64,000 bases of DNA from Pelagibacterium luteolum (GTDB lineage: Bacteria; Pseudomonadota; Alphaproteobacteria; Rhizobiales; Devosiaceae), in contig NZ_FNCS01000005.1 in assembly GCF_900100665.1 (NCBI RefSeq), positions 1 through 64,000 of the forward strand, in the 5' to 3' direction. Of this stretch, positions 3,206 to 11,387 are shown in pieces. Both the position numbers and the translations under genes were made by a program. Below the pieces are notes generated by a model. The model ran no database searches. It saw only the letters and a program-made list of their open reading frames with translations, and was not told the origin of the DNA. Positions within the stretch are counted from its first letter, which is position 1. Every line of letters starts with the position of its first letter.

Positions 3206-4188
3206 GCCGGGGCGAGGAACATGTCGTCCAGAACTTCGGTGGCGCATTGATTGGTGAGATCGAGCAGCAGGCTTTCCTCGTCATCGGTGCGCTCGGGCGT
3301 TTCGAGCAGCGGCCAGAGATCGTCGCTCTCGATGCGCTCCAGAGTGCAGGCGCAATAGGCCGTGCAATAGGCCGGATCGCCTGCGGAACTGCTGCAAGTG
3401 GTTTCGCAGCTGCCGATGAAGTTGTCGGCGCGGCGGGCATCGGCTGCGCCGGTCAAGGATGCGAGGCCCATGAGCGCGCCCAACATGATGGGCTGATGCA
3501 ACACGTAAATCACAAGGCTCCAGCGGCCCAGTTTTGCCAGGACGCGGGCTGGCGCGTTTGAGCCCTTAATGGCGGCGATTTTTGTGACGAACCCTGTGGC
3601 GAGGGCTACGCGCGTGGCAACGATGCCAGCGAGGGCAACACCCAGCCATGGGAATATCGGGACCAAGTCCTCACTGGGCGGGGGGACGTCCCATAATCCG
3701 ACCCAAGACCATATTTTTTCGCCGAAGATGGGGCTTTGGACGAAAAGGGGCATTGCAATCAGCACGATAGCTGTGAGTGCGACGAGAACGATGGGTGCGC
3801 GCAGGAAGGCGAGGCCGATCAGGCTGAAGGCTGCGATGGCGTGGAGGACTCCGAAATAAACGAAGGTTTGCGGTGAAAACGCATAGGTGCCTGCGGTGAC
3901 GATCAGGGCGGCGCCGAGGATCATCGCAAAGCGGCGCGAGAAGGCGTTCCAGCGGATGCGCTCGCCATGGGCCAAGGTGAGCGACACTCCAGTGAGGAAT
4001 ATGAACGTCCCGACAATGGATTTCTGGAAGATAACCCAAGGGGTTGACTGGGTGGGATCGAAGTTGATGAAGCCAAGGGAGGCGATGTCCCAGGTGAAGT
4101 GGTAGATCACCATGGCGACGATCGCGACACCGCGCGCGATGTCGATAGCGGCAATGCGCGGGCGGGATGCGGGGGCTAGAGCGGTCAT
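3196..4188 (-). CDS. DUF1624 / heparan-alpha-glucosaminide N-acetyltransferase-like membrane protein with Cys-rich tail
   Basis: A 330-residue protein whose first 250 residues look like the HGSNAT catalytic family (DUF1624): IDIARGVAIVAMVIYHFTWD near the N terminus, then seven to eight membrane segments and HQPIMLG. Such proteins transfer acyl groups across a membrane onto extracytoplasmic acceptors, but bacterial substrates are mostly unknown. The last 80 residues are unusual: a hydrophilic tail with cysteines spaced CX3C-X9-CX3CXC plus one more Cys. It is translationally coupled to the upstream molybdopterin oxidoreductase (ATGA overlap at 4185-4188), and its 3' end overlaps tauE by 10 bases. 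Confidence 0.8.
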   Translation of the reverse strand: MTALAPASRPRIAAIDIARGVAIVAMVIYHFTWDIASLGFINFDPTQSTPWVIFQKSIVGTFIFLTGVSLTLAHGERIRWNAFSRRFAMILGAALIVTAGTYAFSPQTFVYFGVLHAIAAFSLIGLAFLRAPIVLVALTAIVLIAMPLFVQSPIFGEKIWSWVGLWDVPPPSEDLVPIFPWLGVALAGIVATRVALATGFVTKIAAIKGSNAPARVLAKLGRWSLVIYVLHQPIMLGALMGLASLTGAADARRADNFIGSCETTCSSSAGDPAYCTAYCACTLERIESDDLWPLLETPERTDDEESLLLDLTNQCATEVLDDMFLAPAQE

Positions 4189-6281
4189 ATCTGTGATGCC
4201 CGGACCCAGACGGCGGCATCGTGAAAGGCCGCTCCACCGAATGGCTTGACGGGATCAGAACCGATCAAGACGTTGATTCCCCTGCCCTTTCTATGTGCCT
4301 TGTGCGGATGGAGTCCCTCGGCGACGACGACACCGGTCTGCAGGCCGTCGAAAATGCGCAGGGTGAGTTCGACCTCACCGCGGTGGTTGCCGATGGTCAC
4401 GGCGTCGCCATTTTCCAGGCCCTGACGGAGTGCGTCCTCGGGGTGCATCAGGAGCGAAGGAGTGCCCTCGCGCTTCTGGCTTCCCGGCGTTTCGATGAAG
4501 GTGGAGTTCAAGAAAGTCCTTGCGGGTGAAGTGGTTAGGCGGAAGGGGACGTCATCAGAGGTGGGTTCGTTCCAGTCGCAATAGCTCACAACATCGGGCA
4601 TGTCGGCGGGATCGCACACCCATTGGACGCCGCGCTTGATGCGGGTGGCTTCCCAATCGGGATGGAAGCGGAATTTGCCATCGGCCCAGGCGAAGCCATT
4701 GATGTAGCGGGACTTTTCATCCGGCAATGCGCGGTCGACGAAGCCGGTTTTTTCGATCTCATCGAGATCGCCATAGTGAGATCGCTCGAATACGCTGGCC
4801 ACCAGTTCGCGATCTGTTTTTAGCGAGACCGCAGACGGGGCATCAACTCTTTTGGCTATCTCATTGATAACGAAGTGGTTCGGCTTTGCCTCGCCGGGCG
4901 CTTCGAGGATTTTGGGGCCATAGAGGACGCGGGTGTGGCCGCCTCTTGTGTAGTAATCATTGTGCTCGGTGAACATCGTGGCAGGCAGAACGATGTCGGC
5001 CATCTCGGCCGTCTCGGTCATGAACTGCTCGTGGACGACGGTGAAAAGGTCTTCTCTTTCAAAGCCTTGGCGGGTGAGATTGTGATCGGGAGTCACAACC
5101 ATCGGGTTGGTGTTCTGGATCAGAAGAGCTTTCACCGGGGTGTCGGTCTTGAGCGCTTCGGGGTCGCCGGTGAGGACGGCGCCGATACGGCACATATCGA
5201 TTTCGCGCACGCCCGGCGTCGCCAGGGAGGCGCCGGTGATTTCGGACTTGTCGAGTGCCCAAGTGCCTGAATTTGAATGGAAAGCGCCGCCGCCGCGATA
5301 CTGCCACGCACCGATCATGGCGGGGATGCAAAGCGCGGCGTGCATGTTTGTGGCGCCGTTGCGCTGGCGCGAAAAGCCATAGCCCAAGCGGAAATAGCTG
5401 CGCGGATTCTTGCCGACGAGATGGGCGAACTCTTCAATCTGCGCGACGCTCAAACCGGTGCGCATATGTGCCCATATTGGTGTCGAGTTCTGGATATGTG
5501 CTTCTGTTCGGAGGTTGAGATCTGTGTGTTGTGCAAGATAAGCGCGGTCAGCCAGACCATCCCGCAGCAAAACGTGCATCACGGCGAGAGCGAGCGCCCC
5601 GTCACTGCCCGGACGGATGAGCAACTGCAGATCGGCCTGCTCCATTGTCGCGGTGCGATAGATGTCGACGACGACAATCTTCGCACCCCGCTCGCGGCGG
5701 GCGCGGATGGCGTGCGTCATGACGTTGATCTGGGTGTTGACCGGATTGGTGCCCCAGATGACGACGCAATCGCTTTCGGCCATCTGCTCTGGATTGGTGC
5801 CGGTGAGCAAACCCGTGCCGGCGATGTAGCCGGTCCATGAGATCATCGTGCAGATGGTGTCGTATTGACCGGAATAAGCCTTGGCGTGGCGCAGGCGGTC
5901 GATGCCGTCGCGGTGCACATGGCCCATGGTGCCGGCGTAGTAATAGGGCCAGATGGCTTCGGGGCCGAACGCGGCTTCGATGTCGAGGAAGCGGCGGCCG
6001 ATTTCGTCCAGCGCCTCGTCCCAAGAGATGCGTTCGAACTGGCCCGAGCCTTTGGAGCCTGTGCGGCGGAGCGGGTACAGGAGGCGATCGGGGTGATGAG
6101 CGCGCTCGGCATAGCGGGCGACTTTTTCGCAGATGATGCCTGCGGTGTACGGATCGTCCTTCGCGCCGCGGACGCGTCCGATGGTGCCGTTATCGAGCAC
6201 CTCGACGTCAAGCGCGCAGGTAGACGGGCAATCGTGGGGGCAGACTGTGCGGGCGGTGCGGAGGACGAGTGGCTTGTTCAT
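4185..6281 (-). CDS. Molybdopterin-dependent oxidoreductase (bis-MGD, DMSO reductase family)
   Basis: The 698-residue protein begins with a [4Fe-4S] motif: C14, C18, C22 and C51 (CPHDCPSTC ... GIICEK). The molybdopterin oxidoreductase domain follows, with YYAGTMGHVHRDG, WGTNPVNTQ and VVVDIYRT, and then a C-terminal molydopterin-dinucleotide-binding domain (about 575-698). There is no twin-arginine signal, so it should be cytoplasmic. No electron-transfer or membrane-anchor subunit lies nearby. The closest match in style is the group of soluble oxidoreductases related to BisC and formate dehydrogenase alpha; the substrate cannot be assigned. No good ribosome site is visible before the ATG. Coupled to the acyltransferase gene downstream. 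Confidence 0.9.
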   Translation of the reverse strand: MNKPLVLRTARTVCPHDCPSTCALDVEVLDNGTIGRVRGAKDDPYTAGIICEKVARYAERAHHPDRLLYPLRRTGSKGSGQFERISWDEALDEIGRRFLDIEAAFGPEAIWPYYYAGTMGHVHRDGIDRLRHAKAYSGQYDTICTMISWTGYIAGTGLLTGTNPEQMAESDCVVIWGTNPVNTQINVMTHAIRARRERGAKIVVVDIYRTATMEQADLQLLIRPGSDGALALAVMHVLLRDGLADRAYLAQHTDLNLRTEAHIQNSTPIWAHMRTGLSVAQIEEFAHLVGKNPRSYFRLGYGFSRQRNGATNMHAALCIPAMIGAWQYRGGGAFHSNSGTWALDKSEITGASLATPGVREIDMCRIGAVLTGDPEALKTDTPVKALLIQNTNPMVVTPDHNLTRQGFEREDLFTVVHEQFMTETAEMADIVLPATMFTEHNDYYTRGGHTRVLYGPKILEAPGEAKPNHFVINEIAKRVDAPSAVSLKTDRELVASVFERSHYGDLDEIEKTGFVDRALPDEKSRYINGFAWADGKFRFHPDWEATRIKRGVQWVCDPADMPDVVSYCDWNEPTSDDVPFRLTTSPARTFLNSTFIETPGSQKREGTPSLLMHPEDALRQGLENGDAVTIGNHRGEVELTLRIFDGLQTGVVVAEGLHPHKAHRKGRGINVLIGSDPVKPFGGAAFHDAAVWVRASQI

Positions 6282-6468
6282 TCATCGACTGTTCATGCTG
6301 GTTGGCGGCGATAATAGGGCCTGCGGGGGCAGATGTCAGCCATAGAGGCGAAGTTGCAACACATTGATTGCGATTGCCAAATTGGCTGGAACGAACACAT
6401 TGGGACCGCAATTTAGCCCACACGGCCATAGTTCATGGCGGTTTCGACAACACCCGGAGGGATATTCG

Positions 6469-7221
6469 ATGGGCACCAAGTTTTTCACGTTTTCCGCACT
6501 GACTGCCGCTTTGCTGGTCAGTGGCTGCTCGAGCACATCGCCTGGACCTGGACCCGCGCCGCAGCCGTCGCCGCTGACTTATTCGGCTTTGCAGATGCAG
6601 AACGGCTCCAGCTCGACGCGCACGGGTACAGGTACGATCAGCGGGTCGCCCCAGAACGCTACCGTCGAGGTTGCAGGGGCCACATACAATTTCAATCGCT
6701 CCACCGGTCCGGACACGTCATATCGTGGCGTCGACGCTTACGCCTATCCAACAAGCTCCAATAATGATGGGGCTATTCTCTATGTCGGCGACCATACGCA
6801 AGCGGCGCTGATTGCCGATAATACTGTCAATCAGCAGGCTGTCGTCGTTCTCAACGGCAACAGGACATCCGCCTCGAGCATGCCGACACAGACGGCCGTT
6901 TATGATGGTCTGTGGTCGCTCTCGAGATCTACTGGTGGCACCAGTGCCGCCGGACAGTTCGCTGCGGGGGTTAATTTCGATAGCCGTACCTATTCGATGG
7001 ACCTGTACGATTCAAACACCCTCGTTGGTGGCGGATCTGGGGTCGTTCGCGGAACCGGATTTACGGGTGATTTGCAGACATTCGCAAATTCTGGCTTTGC
7101 ATCGGATAACGGTGTCGATGGACAGTTCTATGGCCCTGGGGCCGCAGAAATGGGCGGGCTGATCAGCGGTCAGTCTGGCAATGCCGCCACCGCTGGTGCG
7201 CTCGTTGGTACTAAACGCTGA
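6469..7221 (+). CDS. Surface lipoprotein with transferrin-binding-protein-like C-terminal barrel (putative Slam cargo)
   Basis: A 250-residue lipoprotein: MGTKFFTFSALTAALLVSGC ends in a lipobox with acylated C20, followed by a Ser/Pro-rich linker. The last 115 residues resemble the small TbpB/HpuA/hemophilin-type beta barrel: TAVYDGLWSLSRS starts it, and VDGQFYGPGAAEMGGLISG with a final GALVGTKR closes it. Related proteins bind transferrin, haemoglobin, haem or other host ligands; here the ligand is unknown. I chose the ATG at 6469 because CGGAGGG lies just before it. The next gene downstream encodes a Slam-like exporter, the usual partner of this lipoprotein type. Confidence 0.85.
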   Translation: MGTKFFTFSALTAALLVSGCSSTSPGPGPAPQPSPLTYSALQMQNGSSSTRTGTGTISGSPQNATVEVAGATYNFNRSTGPDTSYRGVDAYAYPTSSNNDGAILYVGDHTQAALIADNTVNQQAVVVLNGNRTSASSMPTQTAVYDGLWSLSRSTGGTSAAGQFAAGVNFDSRTYSMDLYDSNTLVGGGSGVVRGTGFTGDLQTFANSGFASDNGVDGQFYGPGAAEMGGLISGQSGNAATAGALVGTKR

Positions 7222-7267
7222 TCTGCGGTCCACTTTAGCGCTCGCGCCTTAGCCGTCTCTGTGACTG

Positions 7268-7291
7268 GACCCCGGGAATAAATCCCGGGGT
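7268..7291. repeat. Inverted repeat after the lipoprotein gene
   Basis: CCCGGG is repeated in inverted orientation around AATAAAT (ACCCCGGGAATAAATCCCGGGG). There is no T-run after it. The surrounding words, with a downstream GGATGATGTCGGGGTGAC, resemble degenerate intergenic repeat debris also seen at 8820-9130. Confidence 0.5.
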
Positions 7292-7445
7292 GAAGGAGCG
7301 TAGGGATGATGTCGGGGTGACCTATATGCGTGGAGCACGGAGGTGGTTTGGCCTTTAAGATGCACTTGGGTTTGCGGCGTGTTTTCAAGAGTTCTGGTGG
7401 CGCGTATGCGCGCCGCTTTTTGTTGAGTAATTTACAGTAAGGTCC

Positions 7446-8768
7446 GTGTTTTGGACCCGGGGGTATCTGTTGCACCGCGTTGGACAATTCGTTTTTGGCA
7501 TCCTGATGACCGGTTTGGTGATTGTGCCGGCCTACGCGCAAGGTGTTTCGCTGACGTCGCTCGACCAGGCGCTGGCTGCGGGGAATTGGCAGCAGGCGGA
7601 TTCGATTGCGGTGCAGCTCGATGCGCAGGCTGGTCAGGGTGATATCATGGCTGCCTACGCCGCTTCCGTTAGGCATGCGGCCAATGGGCAGTGCCAGGAG
7701 GCGACGGTCCTGGCCGATCTGGTGATCGGCACCCTGCCCTTTTTCGTGCCGCCTTATCTCGTATCCTATCGTTGCCATGCGGAATTGGGGCGCAATGACG
7801 TTGCGGCGGAGCGGCTGACCTCGCTGCAGGCGATTTTGCCTGCCGGGCCTGAGCGTGATCTCGTCGGGCAATTGCTGCGTGACCAGGAATCGCGCGATCG
7901 GCCATCGTTCAGCGGGTATGCGGGGGTTGTGCCATCGACCAATGTGAATAGGCAGACTGGGGCAAGTGAAATTGACGGCGGTCTTTGGGGCGTCGGACAG
8001 ATTCCGGAAGAGGCGCGGGGCCAGCTCGGTGTGCTGTTTCAGCTTGGTGGCGCGATGACCGTGCATTTGGCCGAGGGGCAGGACTGGAGCCTTTCGGGTG
8101 TTTTGCGGACAGATATTCGATATTCGACCGCGGACGAGACGTTCGAGCCGAGCCTTACCGCCGAACTGCCCGTCAATTTCGCGCTGGCCGGATCGGCGCG
8201 GGCGGTTGTCGCGCCCTATGTGACAGTGGGATTTGAAAACGACGCACATGTGCGGACCGAGGCGGGCGTGCGCAATACGCTGTCGATACCCGTCACGGCG
8301 CAGCAGCGGCTGGCGGTCAATTTCCGTGCGGCGGCCGTCGATCGTCCGCTGAACCCCGAGCGCAATGGGGCGATCATCGATGGCGCGGTTTCTTTGACCA
8401 GCACGCTAACGCCCAATCTGAACCTCACGACGACGGCGCGGGCGATCTACAATCATACCGACGACCAGACGTTGAGCACGCTCGAAGCGACGGGAACGGC
8501 GCGGCTGGATGCATTTATGGATGGTGGCCTGTTGCTGGGCCTTGAGGGCACTGCGGGGCAGCGGTTTCACGCGCGCCCTGCCCCGTTCGAGCTCGACAAT
8601 CAAGTCGACACGTTCGTTTCGGGCAGGATCGATGCCAGCCACCGCGGGATTACCGTGGGGCCGTTCATGCCATCGATCTATTACGAGTACACCAATAGCT
8701 GGTCGGACAATGTGTTTTACACCTATGACAGCCACGATGTCGGGGTGACGTTGCGCGCGAGCTTTTAA
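7446..8768 (+). CDS. Slam-family surface lipoprotein assembly modulator (type XI secretion outer-membrane protein)
   Basis: The 440-residue protein has a signal peptide (cut after AYA, residue 31) and a short TPR-like helical region (about 35-148). From residue 154 a porin-like beta barrel starts with SFSGYAGVVPSTNVNRQT and ends with YYEYTNSWSDNVFYTYDSH and a terminal Phe. That architecture and the closing strand are those of the SlipAM/DUF560 (Slam) family, which moves selected lipoproteins or soluble cargo across the outer membrane. The GTG at 7446 is used here; a TTG at 7470 behind GGGGG is an equally good start that gives a shorter leader. The cargo candidate is the lipoprotein 224 bases upstream. 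Confidence 0.86.
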   Translation: MFWTRGYLLHRVGQFVFGILMTGLVIVPAYAQGVSLTSLDQALAAGNWQQADSIAVQLDAQAGQGDIMAAYAASVRHAANGQCQEATVLADLVIGTLPFFVPPYLVSYRCHAELGRNDVAAERLTSLQAILPAGPERDLVGQLLRDQESRDRPSFSGYAGVVPSTNVNRQTGASEIDGGLWGVGQIPEEARGQLGVLFQLGGAMTVHLAEGQDWSLSGVLRTDIRYSTADETFEPSLTAELPVNFALAGSARAVVAPYVTVGFENDAHVRTEAGVRNTLSIPVTAQQRLAVNFRAAAVDRPLNPERNGAIIDGAVSLTSTLTPNLNLTTTARAIYNHTDDQTLSTLEATGTARLDAFMDGGLLLGLEGTAGQRFHARPAPFELDNQVDTFVSGRIDASHRGITVGPFMPSIYYEYTNSWSDNVFYTYDSHDVGVTLRASF

Positions 8769-9137: not shown

Positions 9138-10664
9138 CTATTCGGCGGCTTGGGGTTCGGCGTCGGTGTCTTCGGTGGCGGGCAAACGGTCGGACAGAGG
9201 GATTTCGACGAGGAGCCAGCCGATGGCGAAGGCAATGACGGCGGCGGCGGCGGCGACCCAGTATATGGGGTGAAGCGCAGAGACGTAAGCTTCGAGCATG
9301 GCTGCCTGTTCGGTGGCGGGCATGGCAGCAAGGATATCGGCGTTAAAGCCTGCAGTACCCTCATCGTGGCCGATGGCGGCGGTTTCGAAGGCTAGTCGAT
9401 TGGCAAAGATGGCGCCGAGCACGGCAACGCCGAGTGAGCCACCGATCTGACGGAACATCTGCGCGCTGGCTGTTGCCACGCCCATGACGGTGTGGGGCAC
9501 GGCATTCTGGATGGCGGCGACGCCGACGCTCATGATCGGGCCGATGCCGACGCCGACGATGAAGGTATAGAGCACGACCAGGGCAAAGGGGGTCTGGGTG
9601 CCGAGGGTCGAGAGCAGTGTTGCGCCGATGGCAAGCATGGCCGATGAGATGATCGGGAGCATCTTGTAGCGCCCCGTGCGCGACATGAAGAGGCCCGAGA
9701 GTGTCGATGAGCCGATCAGGCCCACCATCATCGGCAGGAGCGCCAGCCCGGCCTGAGTGGGTGAAAAACCCTGAACGATCAGGAGGTAGGACGGCATGTA
9801 AGTGATGGTGCCGAACATCACGGTGCCGACGATAAAGCCGATACCGTTGCTGACCAGGAACGCGTTGTTGCGGAACAGGTAGAGCGGCAGGATGGGCTCG
9901 ACGGCGCGGCGTTCGACGATAATGAAACCGACCAATGCCGCCGCTGCGATGACCGGCAGGATCAGCGCCTCGGGGGCTGCCCATGGCAGGATGGTACCGC
10001 CGATGCTGGTGTAGATAACCAGTGCAGACAGTGCCGCAGCCAGAAGAATGGCGCCAACATAGTCGATCTTGTGCTGCTTGCCCTTTTCGCGTGTTTCGAA
10101 CGCAATGGCGATCACGGCAAAGGCGGCGATGCCGACCGGCACGTTGACGAGAAACAGCCAGCGCCAACTCAACGCCTCGACGATGACGCCGCCGATCAGC
10201 GGGCCGATGACGGTGGAAAGGCCGAAGGCGGCGCCGATGAAGCCTTGTGCTTTGCCACGTTCGCGCGCTGGGAGCACGTCGCCGACGGCGGCCATGGCGG
10301 TGACGATGAGGCCCCCGCCCCCAAGGCCCTGGATAAAACGGCAGACGACCAGCATGGTGAGGTCGACCGAAAACGCAGCGATCACCGAGCCGAGCAGGAA
10401 AAGGCCGATGCCGATCTGGAGCATCAGCTTGCGGCCGTACATGTCACCGAGCTTGCCGAAGACCGGCGCAGCGACCGTTGCAGCGAGCAGATAGGCGGTT
10501 ATGGCCCACGAGATGAACTCGATGCCGCCGAGATCGCCCACGATGATCGGCAGAGCCGTCGTGATGATGGTCTGGCCGAGAGATGCGGCGAGAAGGGTTG
10601 CGATTACGGCACCAATGACCAATTTGACGTTGGCGGGGTTTTGGGCCGGTGCGGAATGCGACAT
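9138..10664 (-). CDS. MFS multidrug transporter, DHA2 (EmrB/QacA) family
   Basis: A 508-residue transporter of the 14-helix DHA2 type. Motif A reads GKLGDMYGRKLML in the loop after helix 2, motif C is GPLIGGVIVE, and antiporter motif TALPIIVGDLGG lies at the end of helix 1. Such proteins use the proton gradient to export drugs, detergents or dyes. The ATG at 10664 is chosen for its CCGGAG site; the longer frame upstream runs through the promoter. It is divergent from a MarR-family regulator across a shared palindromic operator, so it is probably derepressed by a ligand of that regulator. No periplasmic adaptor (EmrA) gene is adjacent. Confidence 0.93.
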   Translation of the reverse strand: MSHSAPAQNPANVKLVIGAVIATLLAASLGQTIITTALPIIVGDLGGIEFISWAITAYLLAATVAAPVFGKLGDMYGRKLMLQIGIGLFLLGSVIAAFSVDLTMLVVCRFIQGLGGGGLIVTAMAAVGDVLPARERGKAQGFIGAAFGLSTVIGPLIGGVIVEALSWRWLFLVNVPVGIAAFAVIAIAFETREKGKQHKIDYVGAILLAAALSALVIYTSIGGTILPWAAPEALILPVIAAAALVGFIIVERRAVEPILPLYLFRNNAFLVSNGIGFIVGTVMFGTITYMPSYLLIVQGFSPTQAGLALLPMMVGLIGSSTLSGLFMSRTGRYKMLPIISSAMLAIGATLLSTLGTQTPFALVVLYTFIVGVGIGPIMSVGVAAIQNAVPHTVMGVATASAQMFRQIGGSLGVAVLGAIFANRLAFETAAIGHDEGTAGFNADILAAMPATEQAAMLEAYVSALHPIYWVAAAAAVIAFAIGWLLVEIPLSDRLPATEDTDAEPQAAE

Positions 10665-10692
10665 CGGGTGCTCCGGATTGAAAGTCGCTTGA

Positions 10693-10721
10693 TATATCTG
10701 CCTGTGACATTTACATGTCAA
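10693..10721 (-). promoter_or_regulatory. Sigma-70 promoter of the MFS transporter gene
   Basis: On the minus strand TTGACA (10716-10721) and GATATA (10693-10698) are separated by exactly 17 bases. The -35 box lies inside the palindromic operator, so bound repressor would block polymerase. Confidence 0.75.
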
Positions 10722-10733
10722 TAGCATGTAAAT
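10709..10733. promoter_or_regulatory. Palindromic operator, probable MarR binding site
   Basis: ATTTACATG (10709-10717) and CATGTAAAT (10725-10733) form a perfect 9-base inverted repeat with a 7-base spacer. It lies between the divergent MFS and MarR genes and overlaps the transporter's -35 box. This is a typical arrangement for an autoregulated MarR repressor; the binding itself is inferred. Confidence 0.75.
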
Positions 10734-10763
10734 GCGTTCGGCACGGATTTGGAGTTTCGCCCA

Positions 10764-11387
10764 ATGCAGGATCGACACGAGACGCTACGGATTTTGCTCG
10801 ACAAAAGCGGGCACGACGCCGGGTTGGCCGAAGCGCTGATGCGGATCGATGCCGTGGCCCAGAACTGGCGGCGCAAGATGCATAAGCGAGAGCTGGGGCA
10901 TCGGGCGCTGGCGGCGCTTGGGCTCGATATCGACCTCGCCCAGCTCGACGTGCTGTTCGCCATCGCCGCGCCGCATTACGAGTTCGAGAGCAACGCTGAG
11001 GCCGAGACAATGGTTTCGACGGTTGCTGAAAGATTGATGATCGACCCGTCGCGAGCCAGCCGTGTGGTGGCCGAGATGGTCAACGCCGGTTATGTGCGCC
11101 GGGCGGTCTCGCAAAAGGATTCGCGGCGGACGGTGCTGGAATTGACGGCGGCGGGGGATGCGATCGTGACCGCGGTGCACAGCTACAAATGGTTATTGCT
11201 GAGCGAGTTCTTTGCCGGCTGGTCGGACGAAGATCTTGCAGTGTTCGTGCCAATGCTGGAGCGCTATTCGGACTGGATGAGCACTAGCGAGAGCAGCGAG
11301 GAGAAATTTGCCGATCAGATCGGCGATCTCGCAAACTCCATTGCGGCCGCGCGGGCCGAAGCGGGATCAAGCAGCAAGAGCGGTTGA
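10764..11387 (+). CDS. MarR-family transcriptional regulator
   Basis: The 207-residue protein has a winged helix-turn-helix core (about 55-145). The recognition region ERLMIDPSRASRVVAEMVNAGYVRR and the wing QKDSRRTVLELTAAG are typical MarR. It has a 40-residue helical N-terminal extension and a C-terminal tail of about 60 residues, longer than the usual 140-160 residues of the family. The ATG at 10764 follows GGAG. It very likely represses the divergent DHA2 transporter and itself through the 10709-10733 palindrome. Its 3' end overlaps the LysR reading frame coming the other way by about 21 bases. Confidence 0.9.
   Translation: MQDRHETLRILLDKSGHDAGLAEALMRIDAVAQNWRRKMHKRELGHRALAALGLDIDLAQLDVLFAIAAPHYEFESNAEAETMVSTVAERLMIDPSRASRVVAEMVNAGYVRRAVSQKDSRRTVLELTAAGDAIVTAVHSYKWLLLSEFFAGWSDEDLAVFVPMLERYSDWMSTSESSEEKFADQIGDLANSIAAARAEAGSSSKSG

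Follow-up and report, generated by a model that had tools for sequence, protein, structure and literature searches.

Why does a lipoprotein gene stand ahead of a gene for an outer-membrane translocator of the Slam type in an environmental alphaproteobacterium, and what might the lipoprotein do there? We considered this question for two genes on the + strand at positions 6469-8768 of a 64,000-nucleotide stretch of DNA from Pelagibacterium luteolum (the window; its source genome, G000, is called the own genome below). The pair had been picked out in an earlier reading of the letters alone (the original prediction), and the observation is confirmed at these positions. We consider it highly probable that the two genes make up a two-gene type XI secretion (Slam) module yielding a displayed lipoprotein that works independently of any TonB-dependent receptor. 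Because no such receptor was found in the genome, the most likely role for this lipoprotein is in interactions at the cell surface, and not in capturing iron or haem for an importer.

The lipoprotein, or cargo, has the following features:

6469..7221, + strand: predicted surface lipoprotein (cargo) gene, 250 aa, from the open reading frame with ATG at 6469, GGAGGG at 6456-6461 and TbpB_B_D over its cut-off
6469..6528, + strand: type II signal peptide carrying the lipobox LVSGC; reading the sequence by eye predicts Cys20 as the lipidated residue
6580..6870, + strand: N-terminal handle-like beta domain, from AlphaFold2 (AF2) strands within residues 40-130
6883..7215, + strand: C-terminal eight-stranded barrel (TbpB_B_D), from AF2 strands and PF01298

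The GGAGGG element ahead of the start codon is Shine-Dalgarno-like, and Gly19-Cys20 is invariant in all 15 aligned cargo proteins; the lipobox was read by eye, with the LPAM_1 model scoring under its cut-off. Pfam TbpB_B_D (PF01298) matches residues 138-246 of the window lipoprotein (E=4e-10, 40.7 bits, cut-off 26), placing its C-terminal barrel in that family, and is seen in 15/15 aligned cargos; the NCBIfam slam_lipo equivalog matches 14/15 of them at E<=0.1. The AF2 input was an alignment of these 15 cargos from the window and the fetched loci, in which, as in the identity table, the row for genome G001 lacks the last 8 residues. The best model (pLDDT 83.7, predicted template modelling score, pTM, 0.80) has nine N-terminal strands and eight C-terminal ones, the latter at residues 142-153, 159-169, 174-181, 184-194, 197-204, 212-221, 227-236 and 239-249. 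Its best Foldseek match in the PDB is the TbpB C-lobe 5kkx_A (E=1.3e-10, 247 columns, TM-score by query, TMq, 0.56, root-mean-square deviation 7.5), and after the TbpB chains come chains of NHBA, LbpB and fHbp, with HphA (8gm3_A, TMq 0.50) at rank 46. The lipobox and TbpB-like barrel end that the original prediction had read from the letters are thus both borne out.

The second gene can be described as follows:

7446..8768, + strand: Slam / type XI outer-membrane translocator gene, 440 aa, from a SlipAM match at the C-terminus (17.6 bits, under cut-off), the scores of its relatives and direct matches to a second group of Slams
7551..7892, + strand: periplasmic region of tetratricopeptide repeat (TPR) type with seven helices, from AF2 helices within residues 36-149
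7905..8762, + strand: 14-strand outer-membrane barrel ending YTYDSHDVGVTLRASF, from AF2 and the Foldseek match to OmpG

The gene starts with GTG at 7446, and its product has a signal-peptide-like N-terminus ending AYA (by eye). In the AF2 model (pLDDT 81.1, pTM 0.61) seven helices follow the signal peptide and precede 14 barrel strands, counting 232-240 and 243-246 as one strand, so that the model shows the Slam architecture, in which a TPR domain in the periplasm leads into a 14-strand barrel. The layout of signal peptide, TPR region and barrel proposed for this protein therefore stands; the description of its TPR region as short does not, given the seven helices.

Several results weigh against reading the pair as a Slam module. 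The window Slam scores only 17.6 bits against Pfam SlipAM (PF04575, cut-off 22), over its C-terminal 58 residues, and no model matched it in an NCBIfam scan; SlipAM is also under cut-off in four of the seven close relatives scanned (G009 18.7, G011 19.5, G010 20.3 and G057 20.6 bits), and TPR_Slam is found in just 3/13 aligned Slams, all of the second group and all under cut-off. On the cargo side, slam_lipo (NF041636) gives E=7.8e-10 and 39.2 bits for the window lipoprotein, short of its 80-bit cut-off; the five AF2 models range in pLDDT from 63.6 to 83.7, the lowest being poor; and the likeness to TbpB is moderate, with TMq 0.54-0.60 among the best rows. The best Foldseek match of the Slam model is OmpG (TM-score by target, TMt, 0.75), with BcsC/cellulose synthase subunit C second, and a sequence search of the PDB with the Slam found no relative at E<=10. 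OmpG is a 14-strand barrel, and BcsC is longer than the seven-helix TPR layout of the window Slam. With no solved sequence relative, a fold match to a named Slam is not to be expected.

Given the weak SlipAM score, the sequence of the window protein alone would leave its membership open, and the case is made through the relatives. SlipAM is over cut-off in the other three close relatives (G001 23.8, G006 31.7 and G032 37.3 bits); the G001 match lies at the C-terminus, and the G006 Slam, 50% identical to that of the window, is matched over residues 149-433, most of the barrel. Second-group Slams of the same genus score 58-83 bits (top 83.2), over cut-off in 3/3, and the window Slam matches second-group Slams directly, with E down to 1.5e-16. 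SlipAM is detected at E<=0.1 in all 13 aligned Slams. These comparisons identify the window barrel protein as a divergent Slam whose membership is supported through its relatives. A PF04575 search of the own genome was empty at E<=0.001, missing even this divergent Slam, and the controls gave no match either.

Are the two genes found together elsewhere? Single-sequence queries of 101 relatives gave a Slam match in 14 genomes and a cargo match in 12 (E<=0.001), all 12 being among the 14. In a profile search of 136 family genomes a Slam, full-length or N-broken, was found in 17 and cargo in 15, again all among the 17 (Fisher p=3.9e-18); since the profiles were built partly from these same loci, the single-sequence count is the cleaner one. 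A Slam match at E<=1e-5 was seen in 21 genomes, and the 17 are those left once G003, G024, G029 and G144, which have a short partial match only, are set aside. The co-occurrence of lipoprotein and Slam is not due to chance. At the level of loci, where partial extra Slam matches in G118 and G012 were left out, a TbpB_B_D-type lipoprotein lies directly upstream on the same strand in 22/23 family Slam loci, and the single unpaired locus, L059, begins at a contig end; the per-locus cargo E-values come from a small set of open stretches, so the weakest of them mean little. A run of N interrupts the G012 Slam, that of G157 has a TAA inside the match, and several cargo genes may precede one Slam (four in G006, three in G032). 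At order level, 25/397 genomes have a Slam match (E<=1e-10), 18 of them outside the family; for one locus from each of these 18 a cargo-profile match (E<1e-3) was seen in 9, and among 10 out-of-family upstream proteins scanned with Pfam, TbpB_B_D was present at E<=0.05 in 8, with 6 over cut-off. The original prediction had staked its type XI reading on structure prediction and on co-occurrence in relatives, and the predicted eight-strand barrel of a cargo that resembles TbpB more than HphA, the TPR helices and 14 strands of a protein related to SlipAM, and the pairing in 22 of the 23 loci support it on every count.

Within the genus the pair has a characteristic site. In the window it lies between a molybdopterin oxidoreductase gene (4185-6281, - strand) and a gene for a transporter of the major facilitator superfamily (MFS; 9138-10778, - strand), and it occupies this site in 8 of 13 genus genomes. 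The two flanking genes adjoin without the pair in G003, G004, G005 and G010, and no oxidoreductase match was found in G002 at E<=1e-100. This pattern of occupied and empty sites indicates that both genes come and go together. In G010 the pair lies elsewhere, in a polysaccharide cluster with Stealth, Wzy_C, sugar transferase, ABC-2 and phosphomannomutase-type genes. A functional tie of the pair to the neighbouring oxidoreductase was considered, co-occurrence with formate dehydrogenase having been published for type XI cluster 1 (PMC12282271), and was rejected on the strength of the four empty sites. We also note a short C-terminal Slam remnant in G003 (L060:8176-8304), whose fetched surroundings have no oxidoreductase or MFS match, and, in the own genome, a decayed TbpB_B_D-like stretch containing TGA and TAA (L052:3984-4358, contig G000:C12); the best Slam match in the 12 kb fetched around the latter is not significant (E=3.4).

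Does one Slam always serve the same cargo? The genomes G011 and G008 bear on this question. Their left flanks are 98.4% identical over 1,083 bases and their right flanks 98.6% over 8,178 aligned bases (116 gap columns), whereas the cassette between the flanks is 51.0% identical over 837 aligned bases. Its left junction falls in the signal-peptide codons of the lipoprotein and its right one at about the start of the mature Slam (cleavage site by eye). The MFS, LysR and MarR proteins of the two genomes are 100% identical and the cargos 44%, with 32% in the N half and 54% in the C half. G011 groups with G008 in the Slam tree (support 100/98; branches 0.0023 for G011 and 0 for G008), and the Slam data reject the grouping G000+G001+G010+G011 (approximately unbiased test, p-AU 2.3e-5), which is exactly the grouping found in the cargo tree (support 85/95). 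From the near-identical flanks, the divergent cassette and the discord of the trees, it appears that a single Slam sequence works with two cargo types and that the cargo can be swapped while the Slam stays constant, in the manner of a variable surface antigen or adhesin.

The cargo types differ unevenly along their length. Between G000 and the B group or G006, the N halves are 25-32% and the C halves 42-55% identical, and within the A group the two halves are alike (N 54-79%, C 62-74%); the N-terminal domain would thus be the half most divergent between cargo types. The C-terminal barrel is the presumed unit of Slam recognition. It is possible, though we advance it tentatively, that the Slam locus works as a cargo-switching device, in which environmental bacteria keep the Slam and replace the lipoprotein through homologous recombination, the junctions falling within the two signal peptides; this would give a serotype-like variable surface layer outside a host-immune setting, under pressure from phages or predators or for partner recognition, in a genome with no importer.

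The plainer account, which rivals only the exchange and is compatible with the Slam assignment, is that this is an ordinary conserved type XI pair with a constant cargo role and that the deviating cargo of G011 stems from a chimeric metagenome assembly. The case for exchange comes from one genome pair, and G011, at 84% complete, appears to be a metagenome-assembled genome; the cargo data alone do not reject placing G011 with the B group (p-AU 0.134); and cargo identities within the B group (90-100%) match those of the neighbouring genes (84-100%), so that the cargo is evolving no faster than they are. A chimera would, however, need near-identical junctions on both sides, which implies that A-type cargo is flanked by near-identical DNA in some strain. 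Moreover, G001, which is in one contig, is discordant as well: its cargo is 76% identical to that of G000 and 40-42% to the B group, while its Slam is 64% identical to that of G000 and 66-70% to the B group (the N-broken G012 left out; the Slam figures include unequal predicted starts), and the Slam data disfavour G000+G001 (p-AU 0.0125). On balance we judge the chimera account rather unlikely.

Could the cargo capture iron, haem or a metal and hand it to a TonB-dependent receptor encoded elsewhere, as in TbpB- or haemophilin-type uptake? The Foldseek ranking, with TbpB first and HphA further down, would suit such a role, and 120 of the 185 published Slam clusters with lipoprotein genes carry TonB-dependent receptors (PMC5449769). 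Against it, profile searches of the whole own draft genome (rated 100% complete, 50 contigs) gave 0 matches to Plug (PF07715) and 0 to the receptor barrel (PF00593), where the same searches were positive in all three controls (E. coli, Caulobacter and Bacteroides); the receptor that membership in a TbpA/TbpB or haemophilin uptake system requires was therefore not found, and the earlier remark that the pair stands alone with no TonB-dependent receptor gains in strength, since it extends to the whole draft genome. Among the nine genus genomes with the pair, receptors were found in G001 only, which has two of them beside the same pair, a point in favour of uptake. No receptor was found in 11/17 Slam-bearing family genomes, and in the other six the listed receptors lie on a different contig from the Slam or at least ~95 kb away from it. 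The frequency of a Plug match, 6/17 in Slam-bearing family genomes and 59/119 in the others, does not differ significantly (p=0.31), which counts on the other side from our reading; in this family Slam neither needs nor excludes TonB-dependent receptors. The mature window cargo (Gly+Ser+Thr+Asn+Ala 56%) has one Trp and a single His, His109, whose column holds His in 5/15 aligned cargos and Tyr or Phe in 10/15, with no invariant His anywhere in the alignment. Because no receptor was found in the own genome or in 7/8 other pair-bearing genus genomes, we regard uptake of the TbpB or haemophore type as improbable.

Surface interaction fits better than nutrient capture when the lack of an importer is taken together with the conserved barrel, the type-divergent N half, the cassette replacement and the polysaccharide-cluster site. 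We infer surface display, its dependence on the window Slam and the role of the cargo along the following lines. After synthesis with a type II signal peptide and lipidation, the lipoprotein would be carried to the outer membrane, where the Slam would move it to the outer face, the C-terminal barrel of the cargo serving, by homology, as the recognition signal. The displayed protein would then work without any TonB-dependent receptor, perhaps as an adhesin, a glycan binder or a shield against phages or predators. That the barrel instead exports polysaccharide, as a TPR-barrel protein like BcsC or PgaA with the lipoprotein as an accessory, is hardly credible: BcsC is the second Foldseek match, the G010 pair lies inside a polysaccharide cluster and the PF04575 data set once held PgaA/HmsH homologues, later removed by its authors (PMC8406197), but the window protein has 14 strands and only seven helices, a TbpB_B_D-type lipoprotein is upstream in 22/22 family loci with upstream sequence, and 8/9 genus loci of the pair lie between the oxidoreductase and MFS genes and not in a polysaccharide cluster.

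Between the two genes of the module is a gap of 224 bases (7222-7445), with one further feature:

7265..7296, no strand: dispersed palindrome (hairpin) between the two genes, from own-genome repeat rows and folding

The palindrome has 20 rows in the own genome including this place, most of the others being 27-39 bases long, and 7255-7315 folds at -28.8 kcal/mol (z=-4.16). The hairpin might weaken co-transcription of the pair; in scans for terminators and promoters the counts were near those of shuffles (2 vs 1.2 and 3 vs 3.1).

Related loci show further variety. The second, distant Slam group has its own lipoprotein of ~310-326 aa and occurs in other family genomes (L053-L059, L112 and, more distantly, L111); TbpB_B_D was found in 5/5 of its lipoproteins scanned, and in several of its loci a regulator-like gene adjoins the pair, with weak GerE or PAS matches in 3/5 scanned and none in 2. 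Four cargos from two other genera (L049:6651-9517, L050:7640-8644) carry a DxNGDG/DxDGDG/DxDGNG loop some residues past the lipidated Cys, which we take to be EF-hand-like and which may bind calcium. The Slam gene of G057 shares its last few bases with the reading frame of a 301-aa protein (L051:9514-10419) that begins with a signal-like sequence and is perhaps a third member of the module there. In another family of the order (L118-L122, L127) the Slam is preceded by a 417-485-aa protein in 5/6 loci, none being called in L121; a P-loop-like protein comes after the Slam (separated from it by one gene in L119), with an 'MPI(R/K)IPN' protein downstream in 5/6. A scan of the genome_contigs collection yielded just two loci. 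A scan of IMG/VR contigs with the cargo profile gave one locus, L146:3001-3213, a 65-residue stretch like the cargo barrel that could be the bacterial flank of a provirus.

How does the module compare with known systems? The pair is a type XI (Slam) pair, of a kind already known. Slams have been reported in all clades of Proteobacteria, free-living species included, and of 353 published clusters 185 have lipoprotein genes, nine of them several (PMC5449769). Ten Slam clusters have been described, nine of which belong mainly to water and soil organisms and have no characterised protein (PMC8406197); every one of the seven experimentally verified type XI outer-membrane proteins (OMPs) belongs to cluster 1, which is animal-associated (PMC12282271). 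Neisseria Slam1 and Slam2, with TbpB, LbpB, HpuA and fHbp, share the TPR region and 14-strand barrel of the translocator (PMC5449769) and the C-terminal eight-strand barrel of the cargo, whereas here no receptor was found in the genome, the 250-aa cargo has one lobe, and the organism is an environmental alphaproteobacterium. Cluster 3, of Rhodobacteraceae and Roseobacteraceae, is likewise alphaproteobacterial, with receptors rare nearby and a few eight-strand-barrel lipoproteins, but cargo co-occurrence is rare there (0.21 per OMP) and a barrel lipoprotein is the constant neighbour here (PMC12282271); the main neighbour in that cluster is DUF1194, for which we made no search (PMC12282271). NilB/NilC of Xenorhabdus also pairs a Slam homologue with a lipoprotein, one important in host colonisation (PMC5449769, PMC9100927); that system is host-associated. 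The haemophilins HphA and HrpC, with their Slam, resemble the cargo in size and, by Foldseek, in fold, whereas the cargo here is predicted to be lipidated and no receptor was found.

With Slam relatives and alphaproteobacterial type XI loci with rare receptors already in print (PMC5449769, PMC12282271), the suggestion that this is an undescribed system is not supported, and neither is that of a new class of receptor, since nothing here shows the cargo to be a receptor. The main text of neither PMC12282271 nor PMC8406197 contains the terms Rhizobi-, Pelagibacterium or Devosia, and PMC5449769 contains neither Rhizobi- nor Devosia in its main text. In the open-licence literature, main texts only, we found no published account of the pair in this lineage, of a receptor-free Slam genome or of cassette exchange, and these three elements are the ones for which no precedent was found.

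For the biology of Slam, a nearly unchanged translocator beside two cargos that are 44% identical amounts to a natural experiment on what Slam recognises. A Slam genome in which no TonB-dependent receptor was detected separates display from import, and so offers a clean system for the role of Slam cargo in free-living bacteria.
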